64,000 nucleotides of DNA from Maylandia zebra (Eukaryota; Chordata; Actinopteri; Cichliformes; Cichlidae), in the NCBI RefSeq assembly GCF_041146795.1, contig NC_135180.1:35324294-35388293 (forward strand), read 5' to 3'. The position numbers were made by a program, and so were the translations under genes. Below are positions 1,123-57,400 of this stretch, piece by piece; the first letter of the stretch is position 1, and the number at the start of each line of letters is the position of its first letter. Under the pieces are notes generated by a model that saw only the letters and a list, made by a program, of their open reading frames with translations, was not told where the DNA came from and ran no database searches.

Positions 1123-4100
1123 TTCCACATCCCACCGCCTCCCCCCTGCCTCCCCCTCTACCCACAGCATTGCAGGTGCCTCTGGGACCTCCTCCTCATC
1201 CTCCACGCCTTCCTCCCGTCTGTCCCGGGGATCCACAGTGAGGAGCACTTTTCACGGAGGGCAGATTAGAGACCGCCGGCCTCCCTCTCACGCTCCTCCA
1301 GCGTCTCCTACGCTGTCCCACGATGCCAGCCCACTGCCCCATGCCAGGACCCGGGGTACGACCAACCTGCTCAGCAAAATCACCTCCAAGCTGACTCGCA
1401 GGTAAGAGGAGAAGCTAGATGTTTGAATGTCAAGTCTTACTGTTTTTGAAAGCTTTAAGTAACAAAGAAACAGGGAGTGGACGGGGCTAACTGGTAGAAA
1501 CACAGTGGCTTGTTAATAAATCTGCACGTATTTTTGTTAAATGTTTAGTAATACTGCTAATCGTTGTGGTAAAGTGACAGTACAGGCCTGTCTGATTATG
1601 AGCTTACAACTAGACAGTGTAGTTCTGCACATGAAGATCATTTCGATAACCTTGCTGCCTGTCACGTCTCCTTAACCAGTACTAACCTACCAGCCTTCCT
1701 TCTCTAATAATTCAGCTTTACAGGCTTCAGAACTTGTCCTCCGGAGTGTCAGACCTGGGTCTAATAGTGTTCAAATATTGTTCGCCAATTTAATTTTCTC
1801 ACATTCAAGATTCTCAGTCTTTTTTTTTTCGCCACATCCACATCTTCATGGAAATATCCACCCACTGCTAACCACAGATTCAAACATCACAGAATACTAA
1901 AGTTACCGTTTACTGCACTAATTCATGTTTAGTTATTTAGATTTGACTGTGGGGGCTGTGTAATGTTCCAAGTGTGTACATCTTACTACACTACAAGACA
2001 AAATATGAATTACTCTGTCCTGAAGAAGTAAAGCTGTCTGCATGTAACAGTAAACCAACAGTAAACACACACATCCACACAATCCTGCGACATCGATGGA
2101 CAGTATATGAAGACCAGTTTAAATTTATAAAAATTCGATTTTATTCAGCATGGTTACCTCCTTTTTTTCAGTTCCTCCCATGAACTGTATTCCTGAGGCA
2201 CCTCCGCCTTACTGCACCTTAGTGGCAATTAAAGCTAAAAAGGTAAATGATAACCTATCTGACCCAGGTCTGCGCGCTAGGTGGACACACTGTATGTCTT
2301 TCACGGTTGTTCTTGGCTGCTTATTGTTGCTTTATCTGTTTGTTTGTTTGATTCTTTAACCACTTTGGCTTTTTCTTGCCAGTCACCTTCCAGTCTTCTA
2401 TCCTTCTTTTCTTGAACTACAGTACCTGATGTTGAATTCTTCACCTCTTCTACCTGTGCTTCTTACTGTCACTCTGTGTTGTCTACCCCTTCACTTGCTT
2501 TTTCTTCCACTCACATCTCTCTTTCAAAAACTTTCAATTTTCCATTTTTTTCCATTCCTCTCATCCTCTCTTCACCTCCTTCTCTTCTTCCTCTCTCCTC
2601 CTAGGGTCACTCTTGACCCTTCTAAACGTCAGAGCTCAAACAAGTCCATGTCGGGCTGCACCCTCCCGCAGGGAACAAAAACAGTTAGTAAGTCTTCCTT
2701 TCCCATGTTTTCTGGCTGCTTCTGTCCATCTGACTGTCTGTCTGCCTGCCAGTGCTCAGTCATCCCCTCTACCCCTCATTCACTGTTGCAGTCTGTTGCA
2801 GGTCAGAGTTTAGTTATATGAAGTTTTATCTGAGGCAAAGCTACTCTAAAGGTAGTAATTAATATAAATAAGTCAACTGTCTCAGTCAAATATTTCCACT
2901 AAAATTTATATTTTAGCTTCATGGTGGTAAAATCAAAATTTTGATTTTTTTTTTTTTTAAGTGAAGAATAGTTGATAAAGGAAATAACATAAGCAGGTCT
3001 TAAAAAAATATTAGATGGCCTTTGAAGTACTATCCAAAGACATGTATGCAAAACGTCCGGCCCCACCAGTGGATTCAAACCCAGAACCAGTTTGCAGGAT
3101 ACGTGTGAGAGAAAATATGAAAAAGCCTAATATGCAGTTGGAATTTGGGTATAAAGCATATTTGTCTTGTATATCTTGGCTGTTAAAATACACAATATGC
3201 TTATAGACTAAACGCGGGGTTCTTGTGAGCATTGAGTGTGCATGTGAAATGCTGCCTTTCTTTATGTTGGTCAGCACTATTTGATCTGCAGCATCGACAT
3301 AACTGCTCAAAAGTTCTTCGATTTATTAAAGACATTTTTATTTTTGTAAAATCTCTTTATTATTTATTATTTTCATTACATCCATCTTCTTATCTGGATC
3401 AAGTCCGATCAAATCTTTTACTTAAATAAATGAGTACTCAAAACATAATAGTGCATAACTTTGGGCTACGTTGTGTTTTCTGGTTATTCATTGTGCATTC
3501 ATACATAAAATGGATAAAAACAGTTGTTGCTGCATTAAAAGGTTTTTTAAAAGTCCCACGCTTAACTTGCTTACCATGCAGAAATTTGTTGTGATACATC
3601 TTCTCCTTTTATGTTACTTGATGTGCTTATTCACCCATGCTCGGTCACTGTTTGTACACACTCGGTTTTATGTTTCCATTAACTGACGTAAAAGGTTATA
3701 AAAATCCAGGATTCAAACTTCCCTTTAGAAAGTTGAAATGCAGTAAGACTAAACTCTGCAGATGTGTGACTTAAAGTTGTGGCCAAGTCCACTGATGAAA
3801 TGTTTGATGGTTGCTTCTTCCAGTAGAGCAGCTTTATCTCAAAACCAGCGTGTTTGTGTTTCTAAAACTCTGATCAGCTGCTGTCTGCTTTAGTGTCTCT
3901 TTGTCACTCCTCCCATCTCCAGTGGCTCAGCTTTAGGCTGTAGCACTCACTACAGGCTGTAAACAGCACAGCACCATTACCTGCTTCTAGCAAAGCACTC
4001 AAAAGCAACAAAAATGTGAATTATTTCTATTTTAAATGTATGTTTAAGTTTTCCTTTTTACTGTAGTATGGCTTTAAATGTTACCATCAGGTAGGATGCT

Positions 4101-7100
4101 AGGTCTTTTAGCTATTACAGCTAGAAATCACTACTCACAAACAAGCGCATGGACAACACGCACACTCTTGTTCATGCAGAGTGTAGAATAAACAACACTA
4201 TGGAGATGTGTGTGTATGTTTGTGCGTTCCCTGGAGTATGAGTTTATTGCAGATCAACTGCACTACTTTGAGTCACAAAATCAACACCATATGTTTGTCC
4301 ATGCTGTTAACAAATCATCAGTCGTGCAGCAGCAGGGCTTTGGATTCTCAGAGAAAGCAGAGAAACCAGGACAGAAAGGAAGGGGAGTGTATTTTATACA
4401 CGAAAGACACAGGGGGTGAAGGAAGAAGAGCTGAGATGAAGACAGGCAGGTTCTATCCCTCTGAAAAGTGTGACATATGGTGCGTTCCTGAATGGGTTTT
4501 AGCAGCAACGTATGTCAAAAATATCACTTTTATCCACTTCTAGATAACTGTCTTGATTTTTTTCTTCACATCTAATGTTATAAAATATTATTTCAAGTGT
4601 TTAAAAAGATATTTTTGACATCAGTCCACAGCTAAGGATTCTTTCTAGAGCAAACAAACTGAGGAAAGGTCTGAAGGGTTTTTCAGGTTGGTATTAGGAG
4701 ACTAGAAGGCTGTGCACAGGATGCACAGGACGTTTTAATTTAGACTAAGGCAATGTGGAGGTTGCTGTAATGGTATACAAGGTGGCAGAAAGCTAATGGA
4801 TCATGCTGTAACTGTTGACAATTAATGCGATACAACAAATATGTTGAACCGTGACTGTAAATGTACCCAGCGTGCGTCTTAGCGCTCCGCAGGAGAAGAG
4901 GCTTGTAAGAAGCATCTGGGCCTGCTACAGTCATCCTAACCGACTGACCCAGCATCACTGCCGTTTTAAACCAGGATTAGTTATATAACCACAGTTTATC
5001 TGTGTCTTAAACTGGGATTGCGCGCAGCTCTCCCTCACGATACCAGCAGATTGTTCTGTTACACTGCCGCAAATTGTCTGTCTGTCTCTCGTCCCAGTTT
5101 CGGTCTTTTTTTCCTCTCCCTTTTTGCGTCCTTGTCCTCTTCTTTTTGTTCTGCTTCTCTCTCCCCCACACAATCTGTTTTTTTGCAGTTTACATACTTT
5201 AGCGTTTGCACACAGTCACTGACTCACAGCAGAGTCTGGTCAGTCTGCCACTCCACACTCTTTGCTCACAAAACACTTGAATTCCTTCATGAGGATGCGA
5301 TGCTCCTTGTTTTGGAGGAGCAGGAGTGTTATTCTCGTTCTTTACACAGACAAGATGTCAAGGTCATAATCTTTATAGAGCACCTCAAACTCAATTATAA
5401 TGGTCAAGTTTAGTGTTCTTAAACCTAAAGAATTCCCCTCGAGATATTTGCTCAATAATTACTTGGATAACTTTTTCCCGTAAAGGTGTATCCCAGTGGT
5501 TATTCCTGGGGATTAGGACAGATCGCTCTCTACTTTTTATTTTGTGTGACGCAGTCAAAACATTGAGCTACGCAATCTAAACATTTGTTTAGCCCTGATT
5601 AAAACCTCTGCACCACAACAGCTCCTTAGTCAGAGCAACGGTCATCTTAGTTCATATTAGGTTTCATTTTTCAAACTTAATCTGTCAGTGAAAACTCACT
5701 GCTGGCTCCTTCAAAGTCACCCCCATTTCCAGGAATAGAGATCAGGTTGCCATGCTGGCGGGAAGGAAGCCATCAGTCAAGTGCGTGAATAGCAACAGTG
5801 GCCCCCGGTGGACACAGATGGGATCTGTATTAACCAGCCCGTCTGTGTGAGTGTAATCGTAGCAAATCATGTGGTCCTGGAGACGGCACAAACTACAGGA
5901 GAGAGCAGACAGAAAATCAATGACATGCAGCTATTAAAGAGGGTGGAGGAGAAGAAGAAGTGCTCAGTGCATCATGGGAACTAACTAACTATAAGCTTCA
6001 TCAAAGAGGAAAGTTTGAATCCTAATCTTAAAATTAGAAAGGGCTTGGTCTCCTGAATCTGAACTACAGATGAAGGCTCTATGTCATAGTGTCCTATATC
6101 TACTAACCGGAAGACCGGTGGTTCAATCACTGGCTCCTCTAGTCTGAATGTCCTCAGCGAGACGCCGAACCACAAATTGCTGCTGATGCATCCATCAGCG
6201 TGAGAGTGTGGGTATCATATAAAAAAAGAGCGTTCACAGAATAGAGCACTGTCTGAATGTGTGGTCTGCATGAGTGTGCGTGAATGGATGCATACGACCG
6301 CTCGCAGTGCAGTAGGAGTAGAAAATGGCAGTCTATTTGTCCAGTATAAGCTAAAACAAAAGTCGTGAAATGCAGTCGTAAAGCCTGTGAAAAAGCTGTC
6401 AGTACAAATGTATCTCATGAGTACCCTGCTGGCATCTTGCAACTCACTAATTTGTGCTTCTACCAGCAGTAAAGTCTGCGTTTGCGTGAGTCGTGTAACA
6501 CAAACTATGTGTTGAGACCTGGTCTGCTGCCATAAATTCACCCCCTCGGCATTTGTTCATCCTTCTCACTCGTTTTGTCGATTTTTGTGGTTTCACATCC
6601 ATCCAGTGTTTCAGTGCAGTGAGTGCAGGTCGGTGATCCATCTGTGATTTGAAGATCATGTTCTGTGTCGTGTTTAGTGGATTGGTCCATTAGCTGTGCT
6701 GCTGATTGACAGGAAATGGGGGTGGGGGGTGTAGAAGGGGAGGGGTTGTGTGAGAAAGCGGTTGGCCGATTGATTTCTAACAGATAAATTTTTTTTTTTC
6801 TTCTTGAGGGTCACAGACGAACCTGAGAGAATCAGCAGATCTCCGGTCACAAGGTGAGTAAACATGTTTTAACCAGTACAGGAAATAAAGTTCCAACAGA
6901 GGCTATTTTTCACACGGAAACATGTCGAAGCACGCTGGAGGCAGAAAGACACATCGTGCACACTCACTGAATTCAGGGTTCAGTTAGCAGAGCCATGTTT
7001 TCACCAATCACAGGTTCACATGTGATGCAGGTTTGCAGCAGTAACCCTCGATACCCTACAAAGTGTTTTTTTTCCCCTTATGCAGCCGAAACAGGTCATG

Positions 7101-8848
7101 AATAATGAAACGCATCAGGCTATTTATAAGAAAGCTCAGCAGTGTGAGTGCCTCTGTCACATTTGTCGCCAAAGGTCAACGCTTGTGAACTGTTACAGAT
7201 AAAAGGTGCTTCGCTGCATTTGTTAAGGCTTTAGTTACCAATTATTTTTCAAATTCAAATTATTAATTAAGGAAATTATCCCATCCATGTAGTGTAGATT
7301 AAGGAGAGAATCTTAGGCTTTACTGTTAGGTATAGATTAAGTTACTCAGCACTATAAAGAATAATTGAAATTTGGTTTGTTTTTTTCAGTGTATTGTATA
7401 ATGACCTGCTCTATTCCCTCTCTACAGTCTCTATAATGTGCTATAGCACATCTAGATCATCTTAAAGTCTTTGTCAAGTTTAAAGGCAAATACAAAACTT
7501 GATACATCATGTAAAGTCTCTTCCTTGCAAGCATCTTAAATAAAAAATAAAAAGACGTATGTAAACCTCTGTATCAGAAATGTGACCTGCTATAAATGGC
7601 TGTTACTGCTGTCTATTCTTTTCTTTTATTTGTTACTGAGAGGCTACAGAGATGAAATCACACTCATGCTGTTTCATATTATTTATATGAGACATACTTT
7701 AACAGAAATCATGGCCAGCATACAGCACACAGAGATATTTTTCACCTCTGGATGAAATTCAAAAATATTTTTGTCAGTAATCAAAAGCCACATGAGACCA
7801 CTGAATCATAGCTCAGAGGTCGCATTCATTTCTTGTACTGTAATCTCTGTAAACTGAGTCTCGGTCTCTCTTTATTTTACTCAAACTGGTGTGCGCTCCC
7901 TCTCAGCCTCAGCTGCTCCAGCCCAGTCTCAGGTTAAAAACAGCAGGTAAACCAGCTGCACCAGGCTAACATTAGCAAACGGACTGTGGTGGTAGATGCT
8001 GAGTGTGTCTCCCTGTGGTAGATAATAGAACTATAATGCTGGACTAATAGAAAATGCATTAAATTATATTTTTTACCAGCAGGTTTTATGCTGTTTGTTG
8101 TCACTTGTTGCTCCAGAACAAGAAGTCCATTACAGACGATAATTATTGATTACACTGAACACTGACCACTTTCATGTTACTCATTATAAAACATTTTTAA
8201 AGAAGAAATGTTTATTTTCATATCTTATTTGAACAGCAATTATGTGTTAGTGTAGAAAATAGACTTTGACTCATCTGTGTCCTAGGAACAGAATCAAAAT
8301 CCAGTGATGTGTGTGATATTAATTGTCTTTCTTCTCCTCCCCTCCCCCTAACCACTCATATTCTCACACAACCACACATTCAATCACTTGTCTTCACACT
8401 TTACCATTCATCATCCTACATTTAAATCTCTTCTTCTGCCTTTGCTCTTCTCTTAAAAACTTTCCATCTATCTCCTCCATTTGCATCACCCCTCCCTTTT
8501 CTTAACCTTTTCAGTCGCCATCTATCTGGGCATCAGAAAGCGGCCGAGCCCCGGACCCCCCGATGCGGCTGGGATGTGAGGGTACGGAGCCCCCGCGACC
8601 CGGCCGAGGTGGTGCTAGCGCTGCGTGAGGCGGCACAGGGCTGCGGCTGCCAGGTCCACCTGGCCGGGCCTTTCCTCCTGTCCTGCACCCACGGAGCAGC
8701 CGGGGCCCGCGTGGCCTTCGAGGCCGAGGTCTGCCAGCTGCCCAGCGGGCTGGGCCAGAGCAGCGGTGTAAAGTTCAAGCGCCTCTGGGGGGCACCGTTA
8801 GCCTTTAGAGACATTGCCACCAAAGTGTCCAAGGAGCTGGAGCTCTGA
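1123..8848 (+). CDS. mark4: MAP/microtubule affinity-regulating kinase 4, 3' part (long, KA1-containing isoform)
   Basis: Partial gene: kinase and UBA exons lie left of the window. MARK kinases phosphorylate tau/MAPs on microtubules. Exons seen for the long form: 1123-1401 (spacer, with [13 protein letters not shown] and [15 protein letters not shown]), 6809-6853 ([14 protein letters not shown]) and 8515-8848, stop TGA 8846-8848. Junctions are all AG/GT and share the same split-Arg/Ser phase. The last exon encodes the KA1 domain, which binds acidic lipids and autoinhibits the kinase; it contains [29 protein letters not shown] and ends KELEL, as in the family. The exon 1 start at 1123 was chosen because [14 protein letters not shown] aligns with the MARK2 spacer; 1168 is an alternative acceptor. 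Divergence from MARK1/2/3, the short-isoform exon, and position beside ckm identify MARK4. Confidence 0.93.
2420..2604 (+). promoter_or_regulatory. mark4: Long polypyrimidine tract before the mark4 cassette exon
   Basis: About 150-180 nt upstream of the 83-nt exon are almost wholly C/T, with many TCTT/CTTCT motifs (for example around 2575-2604). The downstream flank 2693-2755 is also pyrimidine-rich. Such tracts are the usual binding ground of PTB-type splicing repressors. Composition is seen directly; regulation is inferred. Confidence 0.45.
2605..8579 (+). CDS. mark4: mark4 short-isoform tail (cassette exon and frame-shifted last exons)
   Basis: Alternative reading of the same gene. Cassette exon 2605-2687 (acceptor CTAG, donor GTAAGT) continues the Arg codon split at 1401 and encodes [17 protein letters not shown] onward to TKTV. 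At 83 nt it shifts the frame, so exon 6809-6853 is read as [15 protein letters not shown]. The final exon then reads [10 protein letters not shown] and stops at TGA 8577-8579, replacing the KA1 domain. The human MARK4 short isoform, recalled from knowledge, has a nearly identical tail. The stop lies in the last exon, so the transcript should escape nonsense-mediated decay. Translation and junctions are seen directly; use of this isoform in fish is inferred. Confidence 0.82.
2688..6808 (+). other. mark4: mark4 intron, about 4.1 kb
   Basis: No coding similarity recognised. An A/T-rich run near 2940-2960 and a SINE-like patch near 6093-6235 are the only structures noted. Confidence 0.5.
6093..6235. 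repeat. SINE-like patch with tRNA B-box-like motif
   Basis: Contains GGTGGTTCAATCACTGGCTC near 6117-6136, close to the RNA polymerase III B box, then text (CTGAATGTCCTCAGCGAGAC) resembling a common teleost interspersed repeat. Identification is by recollection; boundaries are approximate. Confidence 0.4.
6854..8514 (+). other. mark4: mark4 last intron
   Basis: AT-rich intron without recognised exons. Its final 190 nt (from about 8322) are pyrimidine-rich up to the TTTTCAG acceptor at 8508-8514. Confidence 0.55.
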
Positions 8849-28913: not shown

Positions 28914-31373
28914 GTAGGCTATAAATAACTGTCGGTTGTTGTGGATATGAAATGAGGCGCAGCAGTCTGTGTGAGAGAGACATCTTTTGTTTTGTTTTTT
29001 TTATTGTGTTGTTGTGCAGGAAGATGTTTCTGTCTTGTAGCTGCAGCAGCCGGTGGTGTTTAGACTCAGTGGACACTTTTAAAACTGTTGACAAACACAC
29101 AGCTGAAATGTGCTGTTGAAATGTGACGCAGCGCTGTTTGTGTCCAGCAGCATTTTATTATCACCAGCGTCCTTATAAAGGTTGGAAAAGACACTTAAAT
29201 CCATCATGGCTGCTTGGACAGATGGCCAGACATCCAGTTATAAACACATGGGCGGATTATGAGATACTGGGGCCCTGGGCACAAACATGTCAGAGCCCCC
29301 CCAGAGGAACTGTCAGTGGAACTACAACCCCAGTGGCTGCCACTGTGGAGGGATAGGGTGGCACATGATACACACTGGTGCCCAATGAAAGGAGCCGCCA
29401 AAAGAAGAAGCAGCTCTTGTTTGTCCATGTAGAAGTGGATTTTCTGTCTTGTCAACTTGTTTCTATTATACATTTGTTTTTCTTAATCTTAAAAGTCTTA
29501 AAAGTGTGATCCTGTATTAATGCAGTTGATGGCATGACATGCAAAAAGAGGTGTTTAATAGTGACTAAAGTGACCTTCATGTTGTTTGTTTGCTTGTGAA
29601 CCCTCGTATTTAGCTCCAGAGCCTCACTTTGCTTCTGTGTGTGATCAGAAAAGAGGAAACTGAAAGCTATGAGTTTTTCTTTGTGGTGAAGTTGCTGACA
29701 GCTGTGAATTGTGTTTCTGGGTTTTCTCCACAACATTCCTGTAGCGGAGTAGCCAAGTACTCCCTGACAGTGCTGAATTACAGTGTTCTTTACATTTTTA
29801 ATCCACTTTACATAGAAAAAAAGTGCATTCAGTGAAACCAATAAGAAATCTGCTTCTGTGTAGTTTTAGGTTGGAGTTACCTGTGAAAGGTAACTCTCCT
29901 CACACACTTTGCATTGAGAATTAATCACATTTAATACTGTTTAAAACCAGCAAGCCTTAAAGTGGACCGAGTTAACACAGGATCTGCTTTTATTCAGTCT
30001 TACTGACCTTTCACTGAGAACGAGTAGGTCTTTGTGTGGACACAAAGACCTACTCTATTTACCTTTGTAATCAAATTCAAATTCAAATTTTATTTGTCAC
30101 ACACACAACCATACACAGTATGACATGAGGTGAAATGCTTGTAGCTGTGCAATGCAATGCCCGACCATTAAATGACAGTGGTTTTACAGTATTTACAATT
30201 TACAGGTTATACAAAATTTACAGATTTAACTTAGAAATTTACAGTAAAAAAATGTGCAAATAGCAGAAAGAGATTATAAATTATAGGAAGTGTGCATGAA
30301 GAAAAACCAGAGTGCATGTGGTGATGTGATGTGTGTGGGAGAGTCCAGTCCTACACCTGGTTCAGGGCCCGAATAGCCTGGGGGAAGAAGCTCCTCCTCA
30401 TTCTCTCTGTTTTGGCTTTAAGGGAGCAGAAGTGCTTCCCAGACCTCAACAGTGAGAAGAGTCCATTGTTGGGATGGGAGAGGTCCATCATAATCTTCCT
30501 AGCTTTGGACTTGCACCGCTTGGTGTAGATGGACAGCAGGTCAGGGAGTTCTGATTGAATGATGCGTTCGGCTGAGCGCACCACTCTTTGCAGATCTCGT
30601 CTGTACCTGCTGTATTTATGTCTAGTGGTCCCTCACTCAGCGTTATTGTGGTTTTAATTCTTTGACTAAATAGAGTCTAATATTTTGAGACTGTTTTCTA
30701 TAAAATGACTATAGCAGAAACGATTTTGACTCAGGAATCTCAGCTAGAAGATGAAACACATGTCAACATGTAGGTATGAATGAGACCTACAGGGTGATGT
30801 GACCCTTGAAGTTTCCTGAAAAAGCAGCAGACATGGTCTTAATGAATCATCTATTGCACTATAAGTCAGATTCTGAGTGGTTGTTCCTGTTTCCGTTGGT
30901 CCCAAAGCTTGTTGCTGTAGTTCTGCCACAGCCCTCGCACTGAGGGACCCTTCAGCAGGCACGAGGCTGACTCATCAGAGAGTCACTCCCTTCATGGGGC
31001 TGGATTCAGATTAAACAAACATTATCAGAGTTTACTTTTGCTTGCATTTTTCACAGACCTTCCATGTAGTCTATTTATCCACCAGCTGTGTCACGTATAC
31101 ACTTCACCAACAGCACTTTTAAATTATGCTTTAAGCCACCTTTCATATTTTAGAAAATCCATCTGTGTTTACTATTGCACTGCTGCTTCTACTTCTAGTA
31201 CTTCAGCGGCTTCAGTTACTGCTGCTGTCAGCTTCTGTTATCACTTTTACTCATAAATATTTCAGCTGCATGTAGCACTGATCCCCCTACAGCTCTCACT
31301 CTGCCGTTACTGCTAAATAAATGCATAATAAACTCCCACTGCAGATAATGCTGTAACGATGTGCTGTTCTCAG
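28914..31373 (+). other. klc3: Probable klc3 first intron
   Basis: No coding exon recognised. It contains the LINE fragment at 30068-30612. If the leader exon at 28913 is wrong, this is intergenic. Confidence 0.35.
30068..30612 (-). mobile_element. LINE 3' end (L2/Rex-like), minus strand
   Basis: Minus-strand frame 30351-30584 reads VRSAERIIQSELPDLLSIYT and ends RRSFFPQAIRALNQV, the form of a LINE ORF2 C-terminus. The 3' tail, read on the minus strand, ends in AAATTTGAATTTGAATTT around 30070-30090. The sequence is little decayed. Clade assignment (L2/Rex1) is from recollection. Confidence 0.65.
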
Positions 31374-31412
31374 GTCGGTCGCAGTGAGAAAAGGAACCTC
31401 GGAGCAGCAGCC

Positions 31413-39130
<7,718 letters not shown>

Positions 39131-42999: not shown

Positions 43000-50498
<7,499 letters not shown>

Positions 50499-53524: not shown

Positions 53525-54433
53525 TCACAGCTCGCAGTGGTTGTCCTCAGCTTTGTAGCGGTCCATGATGCTCAACACATCCTCCAGGATGGATGGGCCC
53601 AGATCCAGGTTCAACCCCGCAATGGAGTCAGAGCGCGACACACCAGAGGGCTTTGTGAGGCCAGCGTGGTGGAAGACGGTGCAGGGCGACTCGCTGCGTT
53701 CGCTCCGAAGATCCTCGTTGCTCAGGTAGGTGTCGGAGTCCAGGCTGAGGCCCCGGCGAACGTCCTGTGGCCCGCAGATCTCTGACATGGAGTCCTCGGA
53801 GGAGCCCTCAGAGAGGGAGCCGGAGGAGGGGACGAGTCTGCGGATGGCTGGGGAGAGGGAGATGTCACGGCAAGGCTCGGACGCCAAGCGACCCACCACG
53901 CCGTTCTCACAGAGCGACACAGTCGGGTGCTGCTGGCGCTGACCGTCTCTCTGGCTGCAGCCATTGTTCTGTTTGGGGCTAGCCGCAGGAGGCTGCTGAT
54001 GGTGGTGGGAGGGACCATCCAGATGGAGGCGCGGCGGTTTGGGTGGAGCCTGTTCGTGAGCGATGAACACAGGCATGGAGATGGTGTTCTTCAGCAGGCC
54101 GCTGGACGAGTGCTGGTAATGGAAGCCGTTAAAGGCGTAGCTGTGCACGTCATCTTTCGCGGTGAGGCCCTCTCCCAAGTCTCTCTCCATGCTGTGCGAG
54201 CGGGCGTGGCCGTTCTGCGTCCGGCTCGTGGGTGGCAGCATGTCCATCTTACCCTGGAGGAAGCCCACGTCTCCAAACATGTCGCCCTCGCCTTCGGGCC
54301 CTACGTGTGCGCTGTGACGCACGTCGCCCAGCGGGGGGCTGATCATATCACCTGAGAGGACGTCCCGGAGCTTCAGCTTCTTTCCCTTCTTGGGAGTCGT
54401 TGTTTTTAGGTACATGGGCGTCTTTGCAGGCAT
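53525..54433 (-). CDS. Cdc42 effector protein (BORG family, CDC42EP2-like)
   Basis: Single-exon 302-aa protein. Family members bind GTP-Cdc42 through a CRIB motif and organise septins and actin. The start at 54433 was chosen over the upstream ATG at 54544 because MPAKTPMYLK matches the family N terminus and has A at -3. Order: basic stretch KKGKKLKLRDVLS (15-27), CRIB ISPPLGDVRHSAHVG (31-45), DMFGDVGFLQGK (51-62), a LLKNTISMPVF block, APPKPPRLHLDGP (possible SH3 ligand), Ser-rich middle, and C-terminal LDLGPSILEDVLSIMD. The PPKPPRLHL block and C-terminus are closest to CDC42EP2, the first ten residues to CDC42EP3. CRIB Phe is replaced by Val38. Paralogue assignment is open, so no symbol is given. 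Confidence 0.88.
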   Translation of the reverse strand: MPAKTPMYLKTTTPKKGKKLKLRDVLSGDMISPPLGDVRHSAHVGPEGEGDMFGDVGFLQGKMDMLPPTSRTQNGHARSHSMERDLGEGLTAKDDVHSYAFNGFHYQHSSSGLLKNTISMPVFIAHEQAPPKPPRLHLDGPSHHHQQPPAASPKQNNGCSQRDGQRQQHPTVSLCENGVVGRLASEPCRDISLSPAIRRLVPSSGSLSEGSSEDSMSEICGPQDVRRGLSLDSDTYLSNEDLRSERSESPCTVFHHAGLTKPSGVSRSDSIAGLNLDLGPSILEDVLSIMDRYKAEDNHCEL

Positions 54434-57400
54434 CTTGATGTGGCGGTTGGGTTCCTCGGGCCGTTTGAGCTCCAGCAGGAGAAATTCAGCGGGAAGCAAA
54501 CAGTGCTGAGTTGATAAGAAGCTCTCTTGGCTGTTTTTCCCCACTCTCAGCTCAGATATTCAGTCTGTTCTGCTTCTCCAAGCGAGTAAACAAGTATTTA
54601 GGTCGGTCAGAGTAGCGATAGCAACCCGGCGGTTGAGCCTCACACTGACATGTGACTCAGGAAGGGAGAGGAGAAAGGTCTTGATCTCAGATCAGCTCCC
54701 TCTGTCTTCCCCTCCTACGCAGAAAATCCATATCAAAGCGAACGCCGAGCCCTCGTCTCCTCAAACTCTCGTCTTTATCCTGGCTCAGGCAAAGAGCACG
54801 CAGGGGATCAAGAGTGGGATCTCTGGCTGCCTTGCCGTCTGCTGCCCGGTCGGTCCTCCAAGTTCCTCAGAAACTTCAGGAATGTGACATCAAAACACTG
54901 GAGATCTGTGAGGAGAAATCAGAGCGAAAAGGGAGTCAAAAAGCGGCTGAAAGAGATCGAGGGGGAGAGGAAAAGCAGATAGATGGGACAGAGTGAGGAA
55001 TGAAGCCAGGGGGGAGATTTACAAGCACTTTTTCAGAGAGCCAGAGGACACTTGAAGGAAAACACTCCAAGAATCCACAGTGTTTGCTCAGAGGGCCCTG
55101 CCTGCCCCACACTGTGTGAAAATGTGTGACTGGAGGTCCTCGGGCTGCTCTTACAGAGTCACGCATTAGTCTTGCATTCCCAAAGACCCTTCAGCCTCAT
55201 CAGTGGAAACAAATTACCACACTGAAACTGTCGGTTTCAAAACACCTCGTGCCTAATCACAGCATCTCATCAGGAAATAAAGTGTCTTTCCCGAGAAAGA
55301 CACAGGGAACACCCGAAGCCTCGAGATCAGAACTCCAGTTATTTAACTGGTTAAACATGTAGAAGTGCAGGTTTTTCAGGACCACAGTTTATCCACAGCT
55401 CTTCAGTTTCCACTCTTTTACTTCAGTCATAGCAGATTAAACCTACTAACACTGAGAGTCGCCTCACCAATGGTTAGAAAACAATAAAGGGGTGAAAAAA
55501 CAGGGAAATATCCGATACTGACAAAGTGTCTGAGGTGAGAATTTGTTCTATGCTCAGTAACACGCTGACATTATGCATCTGTGTTAAATTGCTTAGGAAT
55601 GGAAAAAACCAGCTAGTGTGAATGGCTGAAAGAGGCCAGTAGTAAAAAGCAGTTTGTGTGTTCAGTAAGAGCAGAAAAGAGTCAAGTGCCAGTCCTTTTA
55701 CTCACTGAAGTCCAGTTTTTACACCTACAGTGCTTAAAAAAAAAAAAAAAAAAAAAAATGTATTAGAGCATCTGTCATAAAGACAAGTACACAAATAATT
55801 TAGATATCTGTCAGAAAAAAAAGACTGAATTTACGTTTAGATACCCAAATCTGAGCCGGCAACCTGAGAAGTGAGAAATTAATCAAGCATTCAACCGCTA
55901 AAACTAATTTATTGTTCGTGTTTGCAAAAAAACTAATTTGGTGTCTTAATTAAAAAAAATGTTTTAATATTTTTTCAGTATTTTTGGTAAAAGTACATTT
56001 GAAAATTCACAGATAACAACAATTATTATAATTTAATATTAAAAATTTAAAGAGTAAATTACCATTAGACAAAAATAATAGCTAATTACCAGTTCTGTTA
56101 ATTTAGGGCAGCTGAGGCATAAACCTTAGATTGGGTGATCTTAAAAAAAACAAAAAAAACAACTGTTTTAGTTTTTGATTTTAGTTTATTTAAGGTTACT
56201 TTAATAACCCTGGAAACGGCAGTACTTCCCTTGGTAAAAGCTACACTCGCTCTCTCGCTGTCATTTTTGACACCGTCTCTGCTGCACAGAGCTGTTGCTT
56301 TTGCTTCTTCAGTGACCCAAAGACTTGCATTCAGACAAGCCTCCATCATTTAATAGGCGAATTAGAGAAAAGCTTTCCATGCATCGTTTAGAAAAACAGA
56401 AACAGCAGAACCAGTTCAGAGCCATCTGGTTGTATGTTAAAAACCAGTTGACCCACTTTTGGTCAACCTTTGGAAGAATTTGGTCTTGAATAGTTTGTTT
56501 TCTTGTATAATTTTCAGATCTTGTGAGTCAAATTGCTGCTTTATGTGCGGTCTCCGTGTTTAGAAATGAGAGAAGCACGCTCGCAATGAGCATAAAAACA
56601 TTTTTCTTTAAATCGCACAGCCGTCATGTGTTTCTTGTGACTGCCCGACCCTCACTGGGTGTGTTTACTGAGAATACTTTGGATTGCTTAAACAGATCTC
56701 TTTCAACAAATAAAATCTGCCGTCTTGAGTCATATTCGTGCCTCCGTCTGAGTGAAAAAACTTTATCAGCAGGGTTGATTTGTGCAGCTCTGAATCGTTA
56801 CTGTCCCGGTGTTAAATCTTTGTATTTCTGATGACTCTTATCAGTTCTGACTCAGTCGTGGTTATTTTTCTTTAGCTTTTTAAATACGTAATAAACATTA
56901 AAAATACCAGAGTGAGATTTTTAGCTCAGCTTCAGAGTTTCCAGCACATCACAGAGGCATCTGAAGGGGACCTGTGAATCTCACACTGGGGTCAGACTGA
57001 GGTCAGGTTAGAGTACAAAAAACATGCGGCTTGAAATTTGAAAGAGGGTCTGAAATGAGTAAACTTTGAGTTCAGTTTGAGATTGAACTGTTTGCTTCTT
57101 TTATACAAGTTGCTTCACTTCTTCAGAAATTCTCAGTCCTCCTGTGATTTTGCTCTGGGACAAACTCTCATCAGTTATCAGGATTTTATTTCCGTCTTTT
57201 GGTATTTTCCAGCTGCCCCGTCAAACGGAGTTCTTGGGAAACCGCCGGCACAAACGGGAGAACTTCAGCTTTGGTGGAGTCTTTTCGCGTTGCAACATGT
57301 ATCCTGCGACACATGCAGGCCACCCAGGGGACACGCTTTAATGAGGCCTGAAGTTTCAAAACACTGCTATGTGGAAAAAAAAGATTCCTCACAGGTTACA

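Follow-up and report, generated by a model that had tools for sequence, protein, structure and literature searches.

A cassette exon predicted to switch the reading frame at the C terminus of cichlid mark4, with constraint mainly on the short tail

The window analysed here is a 64,000-nt stretch of the Maylandia zebra genome (C14:35324294-35388293), and our subject is its gene mark4, for which a first-pass annotation had proposed that about 110 nt are coded in two frames, toggled by an 83-nt cassette exon at 2605-2687; these coordinates hold base for base. We consider it highly likely that this is an ancient C-terminal frame switch of mark4 with selection acting mainly on the short-tail reading. 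At the level of sequence, skipping of the cassette would yield a long kinase ending in the KA1 domain, and inclusion would place the overlapping codons in the other frame and give a short tail without KA1, which supports the first-pass claim that one splice choice swaps KA1, a membrane-binding domain whose lipid-binding and autoinhibitory roles are putative in this gene, for a new tail. Because the cassette is 3n+2 nt long, the downstream 45-nt exon together with the opening 65 nt of the last exon (45 + 65 = 110 nt, hereafter the overlap) are read in either of two frames, called here L (long, the KA1 frame) and S (short, the shifted frame). Between the two mark4 copies of this fish, constraint on S only explains the data and constraint on L only does not. 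A wider joint account is likely, although we hold it with less confidence: the switch would be ancestral to MARK3 and MARK4 and older than the vertebrate genome duplications separating them, the S tail and not the annotated KA1-frame reading would be the selected product, its stop would be borrowed from the opening codons of KA1, and MARK3 should make a KA1-less short form where vertebrates keep the cassette.

Two readings of the mark4 C terminus

Genes are labelled by contig: C14 (the window) and C10 carry mark4 copies, C19 and C15 carry mark3 copies, and C13 and C3 carry further MARK genes. Searches covered the whole 962-Mb genome of this fish, and six MARK genes were listed in the KA1 search. 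The upstream kinase/UBA exon pieces of the window gene matched MARK4 structures best (505.8 bits; MARK1 next, 482.4), as did the kinase/UBA region of the C10 copy (514.5 versus 486.5 bits). C13 and C3 are presumably mark1 and mark2, to judge by their linker peptides and KA1.

With the cassette skipped, position 1401 is joined to 6809 and the 45-nt exon to 8515 onward, and the product runs through KA1 to a stop at 8846-8848; this reading was reproduced as first proposed, and its KA1 (PF02149, E = 8.4e-13) aligned to the solved KA1 domains of MARK1 and MARK3. With the cassette included (28 residues in translation), the overlap is read as R plus 35 residues before a stop at 8577-8579; here the annotation had placed the stop correctly, but the 10 residues that it gave as the last are followed by 11 more. 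Both frames are open across the splice junction in the spliced readings, as had been claimed, and the third frame of the overlap contains a stop. The short product had no Pfam match at E 1 or better and one unconvincing match in PDB (E = 0.084), and a back-translated DNA pattern of the S frame gave 0 matches against viral_contigs. A second exon-like stretch between the upstream spacer exon (exon A) and the cassette, at about 2171-2241, has a good acceptor but meets a stop when joined to exon A, and was rejected.

The annotation had also stated that the human short isoform ends in a similar tail and that the long form carries KA1. Both forms are published: MARK4L arises by skipping of exon 16 with a moved stop, giving 752 aa instead of 688 (PMC9355243), MARK4S is described by a different or missing C-terminal domain, and KA1 is said to be more variable or absent among MARK4 isoforms, and a MARK1 KA1 fusion to be auto-inhibited (PMC6890249). 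The human MARK4 switch is already in print, and the same switch is present in fish mark4. What is new here, judged by sequence likeness, is that a second mark4 copy and one of two mark3 copies share the cassette, the 45-nt exon and the shifted tail; a literature search returned no paper combining 'MARK4' and 'dual coding'.

For the comparison of the tails themselves, the human letters (126 and 62 residues) are presumed ones, and the similarity of the fish and human short tails is to be read with this in mind. Their lengths fit both isoforms (752-126 = 688-62 = 626), and one DNA can code the overlapping parts of both, whereas 20000/20000 shuffled short tails lead to a contradiction within six codons; this shared encodability and the exact lengths support the presumed human tails.

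Constraint on the overlap

The mark4 copy on C10 shares the phases of the window gene across its 83-nt cassette, 45-nt exon and last exon, and its tail is SQMNLRESGDLRSQVAIYLGIKKRPSPGPSDVAGI-stop. Between C14 and C10, 30/36 residues of the overlap are identical in S and 21/36 in L, and of 19 nucleotide differences 13 fall at S third positions (P = 0.0019). The expectation that synonymous changes would be fewer in the overlap than in the rest of the last exon was borne out for these two copies, with L third positions changed at 4/36 in the overlap versus 48/88 in KA1-only codons (P = 6e-6).

We simulated divergence with constraint on L only (counting runs with S open) or on S only (counting runs with L open). 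The L-only model gave a mean S identity of 24.5/36, compared with the observed 30 (P = 0.004), and the S-only model gave a mean L identity of 22.4/36, compared with the observed 21. Depending on the direction simulated, 57% or 54% of S-only runs acquired a stop in L. Since S-only runs often stop L and the L identity matches the S-only model, selection for the openness of L is at most weakly supported and selection on its residues is not detectable; the first-pass statement that dual coding has been kept thus stands for the openness of both frames, but between the fish copies only S carries amino-acid constraint. Codon shuffling, in which the L protein was fixed and synonymous codons were drawn at random, reached the C14-C10 S match (19/22 first codons) in 0/20000 runs. 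Protein-level selection on the alternative frame was therefore detected in the C14-C10 pair both by simulation and by codon shuffling. We caution that an open S frame alone is weak evidence, because 5.95% of 50000 codon-randomised runs leave S open; the last exons of C13 and C3, which lack the tail, also have a shifted frame open up to the KA1 stop.

For comparison with the presumed human tails, the DNA of the overlap was inferred from the two proteins (104/110 bases fixed). The L reading diverges more between human and fish than S does (18/36 and 26/36 identical, respectively), and 20 of the first 21 residues of the fish S tail match. With fish L fixed, 26/36 was reached in 0/50000 codon-randomised runs (mean 8.5). 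In the first 63 nt, ten of the 11 fish-human differences are S-silent and L-changing, one changes both and none is L-silent only; nine of the 11 lie at S third positions.

If strong amino-acid selection instead acted on both frames of the overlap, as in true two-way dual coding, both should be open, and they are in all three switch-bearing genes. The frequency with which S-only runs stop L also speaks for this interpretation, as does L conservation, which does not go beyond the S-only model but lies above codon-shuffled expectation against the presumed human tail. However, the L identity between the fish copies is about what S-only drift would produce, and nearly every change between fish and human within the first 63 nt spares S and alters L, so we regard it as unlikely. 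Under selection mainly on S, the L reading of the overlap would be a tolerant linker into KA1.

Part of the tail does derive from KA1. A shifted-frame TGA at the KA1 opening W-S/D-(M/V/L)-K/R is present in 6/6 of the MARK genes found, preceded in C15 by earlier shifted-frame stops, and W-S-M-K forces this TGA in 12/12 codon combinations and W-S-V-K in 24/48. Because the codons of W-S-(M/V)-K often or always spell a shifted TGA, the S stop comes almost free, and because it is anchored in KA1 codons the last tail residues are partly by-products, with the conserved core sitting earlier (LRE[S/T]xDLRxQVA[I/M]YLGI[K/R][K/R]). A C-terminal glycine-hydrophobic ending as a PDZ ligand was considered and dropped, since the KA1 tryptophan codon yields the glycine and the codons after it yield the stop.

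An alternative interpretation is that the cassette merely removes KA1, a known functional module, and that the tail sequence, itself irrelevant, owes its conservation to the KA1 frame. The origin of the S stop in KA1 codons makes this true of part of S. Nevertheless, the L-only model is rejected (P about 0.004), L third positions change about five times less often inside the overlap than among KA1-only codons, and codon shuffling reached the S match in 0/20000 runs for each of three gene pairs, with the C15 copy of mark3, which has no cassette, near expectation in 3/3 (see below); this interpretation is already disfavoured and we consider it quite improbable. A further possibility is that needs at the RNA level, such as structure or splicing enhancers around weak exons, keep the overlap conserved, and not the S protein. 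Exonic enhancers are plausible given so short an exon as the 45-nt one and a weak cassette donor, but RNA signals would not give the three-base period set by S (13/19 between fish copies; 9/11 in the first 63 nt versus inferred human), and C15 retains the 45-nt exon though its S frame has decayed. We rate this explanation as very improbable and favour selection mainly on the S protein.

The mark3 copies and the age of the switch

The gene on C19 is of MARK3 type by its kinase/UBA region (527.7 bits, versus 492.8 for MARK2, 491.9 for MARK1 and 491.1 for MARK4). It was missed among the four places listed in the genome-wide tail search, namely the two parts in the window and two on C10, and was reached through its KA1 exon. 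In order, it carries exon A (GTSNLFSKLTSKLTRR), an 80-nt cassette (RVSIDPAKRQSAKTGPANPSTQGGKTL), the 45-nt exon and the last exon, and its shifted-frame tail is KSPPSLRETGDLRAQVAMYLGIKKGKIKTVNPAPSDSLGV-stop, ending ...SPPSLRETGDLRAQVAMYLGIKKGKIKTVNPAPSDSLGV-stop. The second MARK3-type gene, on C15 (426.7 bits versus 389.8 for MARK1), has the 45-nt exon, but the intron leading to it from exon A is only 208 nt long and without a cassette, and its shifted frame (GSQSLRGMAELRAPAVTCRRSRKR...) meets an early stop.

Codon shuffling with L fixed reached the S matches of C19 to C10 (16/22) and to C14 (14/22) in 0/20000 runs each. The S matches of C15 were near codon-shuffled expectation: 4/22 with C10, 6/22 with C14 and 6/22 with C19, values reached in 10307, 2666 and 9550 of 20000 runs, respectively. 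Between C19 and C15, identity is 6/22 in S and 12/22 in L, and 13/25 changes are at L third positions, the reverse of the mark4 pair; the ratio of S third- to S second-position changes is 13:4 in the mark4 pair (whole overlap) versus 8:13 in the mark3 pair (P = 0.025). Since both mark3 (C19) and mark4 carry the switch, it probably goes back to an ancestor shared by MARK3 and MARK4 and would then predate their split. The first-pass view that dual coding has been kept since the fish-mammal split agrees with the conservation of the toggle, but it probably underestimates the age, given that the C19 mark3 carries the switch. The C15 copy, without the cassette, has probably lost the short frame.

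In the MARK gene on C13, KA1 is likewise preceded by a 45-nt exon, matching in position and phase (VPSEGEASARTETPR), and thus the exon may predate the switch and be common to more MARKs; its shifted frame (YLVRERPVPGQKHQ) is unlike the tail and was set aside. Cassette-like matches in the 30 kb read for C13, C3 and C15 were weak; the strongest, at E = 0.035 in C3, falls between exon A and KA1 but was rejected because the sequence around it offers no open exon of 3n+2 length bounded by AG and GT. Separately, the C19 mark3 has a 27-nt exon-like stretch with AG/GT ends at about 6524570-6524541, between exon A and the cassette (match RNMSFRFTKR), and C3 has a similar stretch (RNLSFRFPRR). Standing beside a frame-shifting cassette, the C19 stretch suggests that this mark3 intron may hold two kinds of cassette.

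A KA1-less isoform of this kind is not known for MARK3. Literature on MARK3/MARK4 splicing and on mark4a/4b/3a/3b, judged mostly by titles, indicated no MARK3 frame switch or fish isoform, and a term search of the main text of a 2008 dual-coding survey found neither MARK3 nor MARK4 (PMC2329644).

Regulation, consequences and comparison with known systems

Splice sites were scored with a simple matrix of assumed frequencies. The cassette donor TTA/GTAAGT (the slash marks the exon boundary) is weak, with a log-odds of 1.7 compared with 7.1 and 8.3 for the strong donors of the neighbouring exons (1401 and 6853). The cassette acceptor ranks within the top 0.02% of AG sites in the window. Regulated exons typically have weak donors. 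Such a donor would also favour splicing noise or a decayed exon, with the cassette unused in fish, but the cassette protein is identical at 23/27 residues between C14 and C10, with 13/17 codon changes at third positions, and TTA/GTAAGT is kept in 3/3 switch-bearing genes; we consider noise or decay extremely improbable.

Pyrimidines dominate the 150 nt upstream of the cassette (82% in C14, 78% in C10 and 75% in C19), and with an assumed set of PTB-type motifs, scored over these 150 nt, the motif count was reached by 13 (C14), 37 (C10) and 222 (C19) of 15048 background windows. No RBFOX sites were found in 2304-2604 or 2688-2988. The tracts fit repression of the cassette by PTBP1, in analogy with human MARK4, for which a review has PTBP1 regulating exon 16 exclusion (PMC10835012), and we propose that PTBP1 probably represses the fish cassette outside neurons through the upstream tract. 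MARK4S is reported mainly from brain (PMC12027440), and ASCOT shows a MARK4 exon, left unnamed, in retina, brain and muscle (PMC6952364). The S stop lies in the last exon, and the short-isoform mRNA should therefore escape nonsense-mediated decay. As the better-guarded reading, probably kept since before the MARK3/MARK4 split, the tail is expected to be functional in its own right; most likely it would serve as a protein-binding motif of a neuronal kinase freed from KA1 control.

Several points weigh against this account. The evidence base is the DNA of one genome, from which splicing in fish is inferred, and the fish-fish tests are pairwise within that genome and do not resolve branches. The C14-C10 bias towards S-silent, L-changing differences has the same direction in both zones but is non-significant in each (7 versus 1, P = 0.07; 5 versus 2, P = 0.43), and the last 45 nt show no S enrichment between fish and inferred human (3/16, P = 0.86), with four S-silent/L-changing differences, four L-silent/S-changing and eight changing both. 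With fish S fixed and codons random, the L similarity to human (18/36) was reached in 15/50000 runs, in a test that ignores shared ancestry. The contrast between the mark4 and mark3 pairs is non-significant over the same 22 codons (7:3 versus 8:13, P = 0.14), as is S third-position enrichment between mark3 and mark4 (10/20, P = 0.09; 8/16, P = 0.13). An amphipathic helix in the short tail was rejected, helical moments being no higher than in shuffles in 4/4 tails (one of them the presumed human tail). The C19 pyrimidine tract is the weaker one by its motif count, and PMC7216233 has MARK4L highly expressed in brain, nearly opposite to PMC12027440.

If the S tail is indeed the better-guarded reading and older than the MARK3/MARK4 split, the function of the tail becomes directly testable apart from KA1, a short MARK3 isoform is predicted, and C15, a mark3 copy without cassette or tail, would be a natural experiment. 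Variants silent in MARK4L may alter a conserved MARK4S residue.

Coordinates of the features are collected in Table 1. For exon A, DNA similarity to the C10 copy starts at window position 1216, and the acceptor at 1167 is modest (4.3% of AG sites score equally high).

Table 1 Features of the mark4 C-terminal region in the window (slashes mark exon boundaries).
Feature	Position	Strand	Evidence and remarks
mark4 upstream exon (exon A, spacer; ends SKITSKLTR + AG)	1168..1401	+	open frame, donor CGCAG/GTAAGA; start not firmly set
Pyrimidine-rich tract 5' of cassette, PTB-type motifs, candidate repression site	2361..2604	+	left edge by eye
83-nt (3n+2) cassette exon; inclusion shifts frame	2605..2687	+	CTAG/GGTCAC ... 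CAGTTA/GTAAGT; 83-nt homologue on C10, 80-nt on C19
45-nt exon read in two frames (14 residues L; R + 14 residues S)	6809..6853	+	GAG/GGTCAC ... CACAAG/GTGAGT
Start of last exon, read in two frames	8515..8579	+	acceptor TTCAG/TCGCC
TGA stop of short isoform, within KA1 codons W-D-V-R	8577..8579	+	spliced reading
Remaining KA1, long isoform only; stop at 8846-8848	8580..8848	+	PF02149; MARK1 and MARK3 KA1 structures

Elsewhere in the window, plus-strand exons at 31332-38777 look like those of a kinesin light chain, with a TPR match at 37556-37939 (E = 1.4e-10) and no Pfam match at 31332-31766 or 38439-38777; the name KLC is tentative, and the position beside mark4 parallels that of KLC3 near MARK4 in human. 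An open frame at 36331-36699 on the plus strand resembles, by eye, a remnant of a retroelement reverse transcriptase, and had no Pfam match. On the minus strand, 46493-46999 encodes an HBB domain (PF06777, E = 3.8e-13), a domain of XPD/ERCC2-type helicases that would also fit the human MARK4 neighbourhood, and 53528-54559 is a single 344-aa open frame of a Cdc42 effector (BORG_CEP, E = 3.9e-24; PBD, E = 4.6e-6).

Fish mark4 and human MARK4S/MARK4L represent the same type of gene, in which exclusion of the cassette leads to the longer form and inclusion to the shorter. The cassette is 83 nt long in fish, compared with 80 nt derived from the presumed human tail. Of the marks of PTBP1-repressed neuronal cassette exons, the CU-rich tract at the 3' splice site is the one seen in fish. 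In work on splice-driven dual coding in C. elegans (PMC13247117), a threshold of 60 nt is used and similar conservation scores are reported in one comparison; the 110 nt recoded in mark4 lie above that threshold of at least 60 nt, and in both systems a non-triplet exon recodes downstream sequence. Unlike in the C. elegans set, the mark4 switch is common to paralogues, one paralogue has neither cassette nor tail, and constraint is stronger on the alternative frame than on the other.

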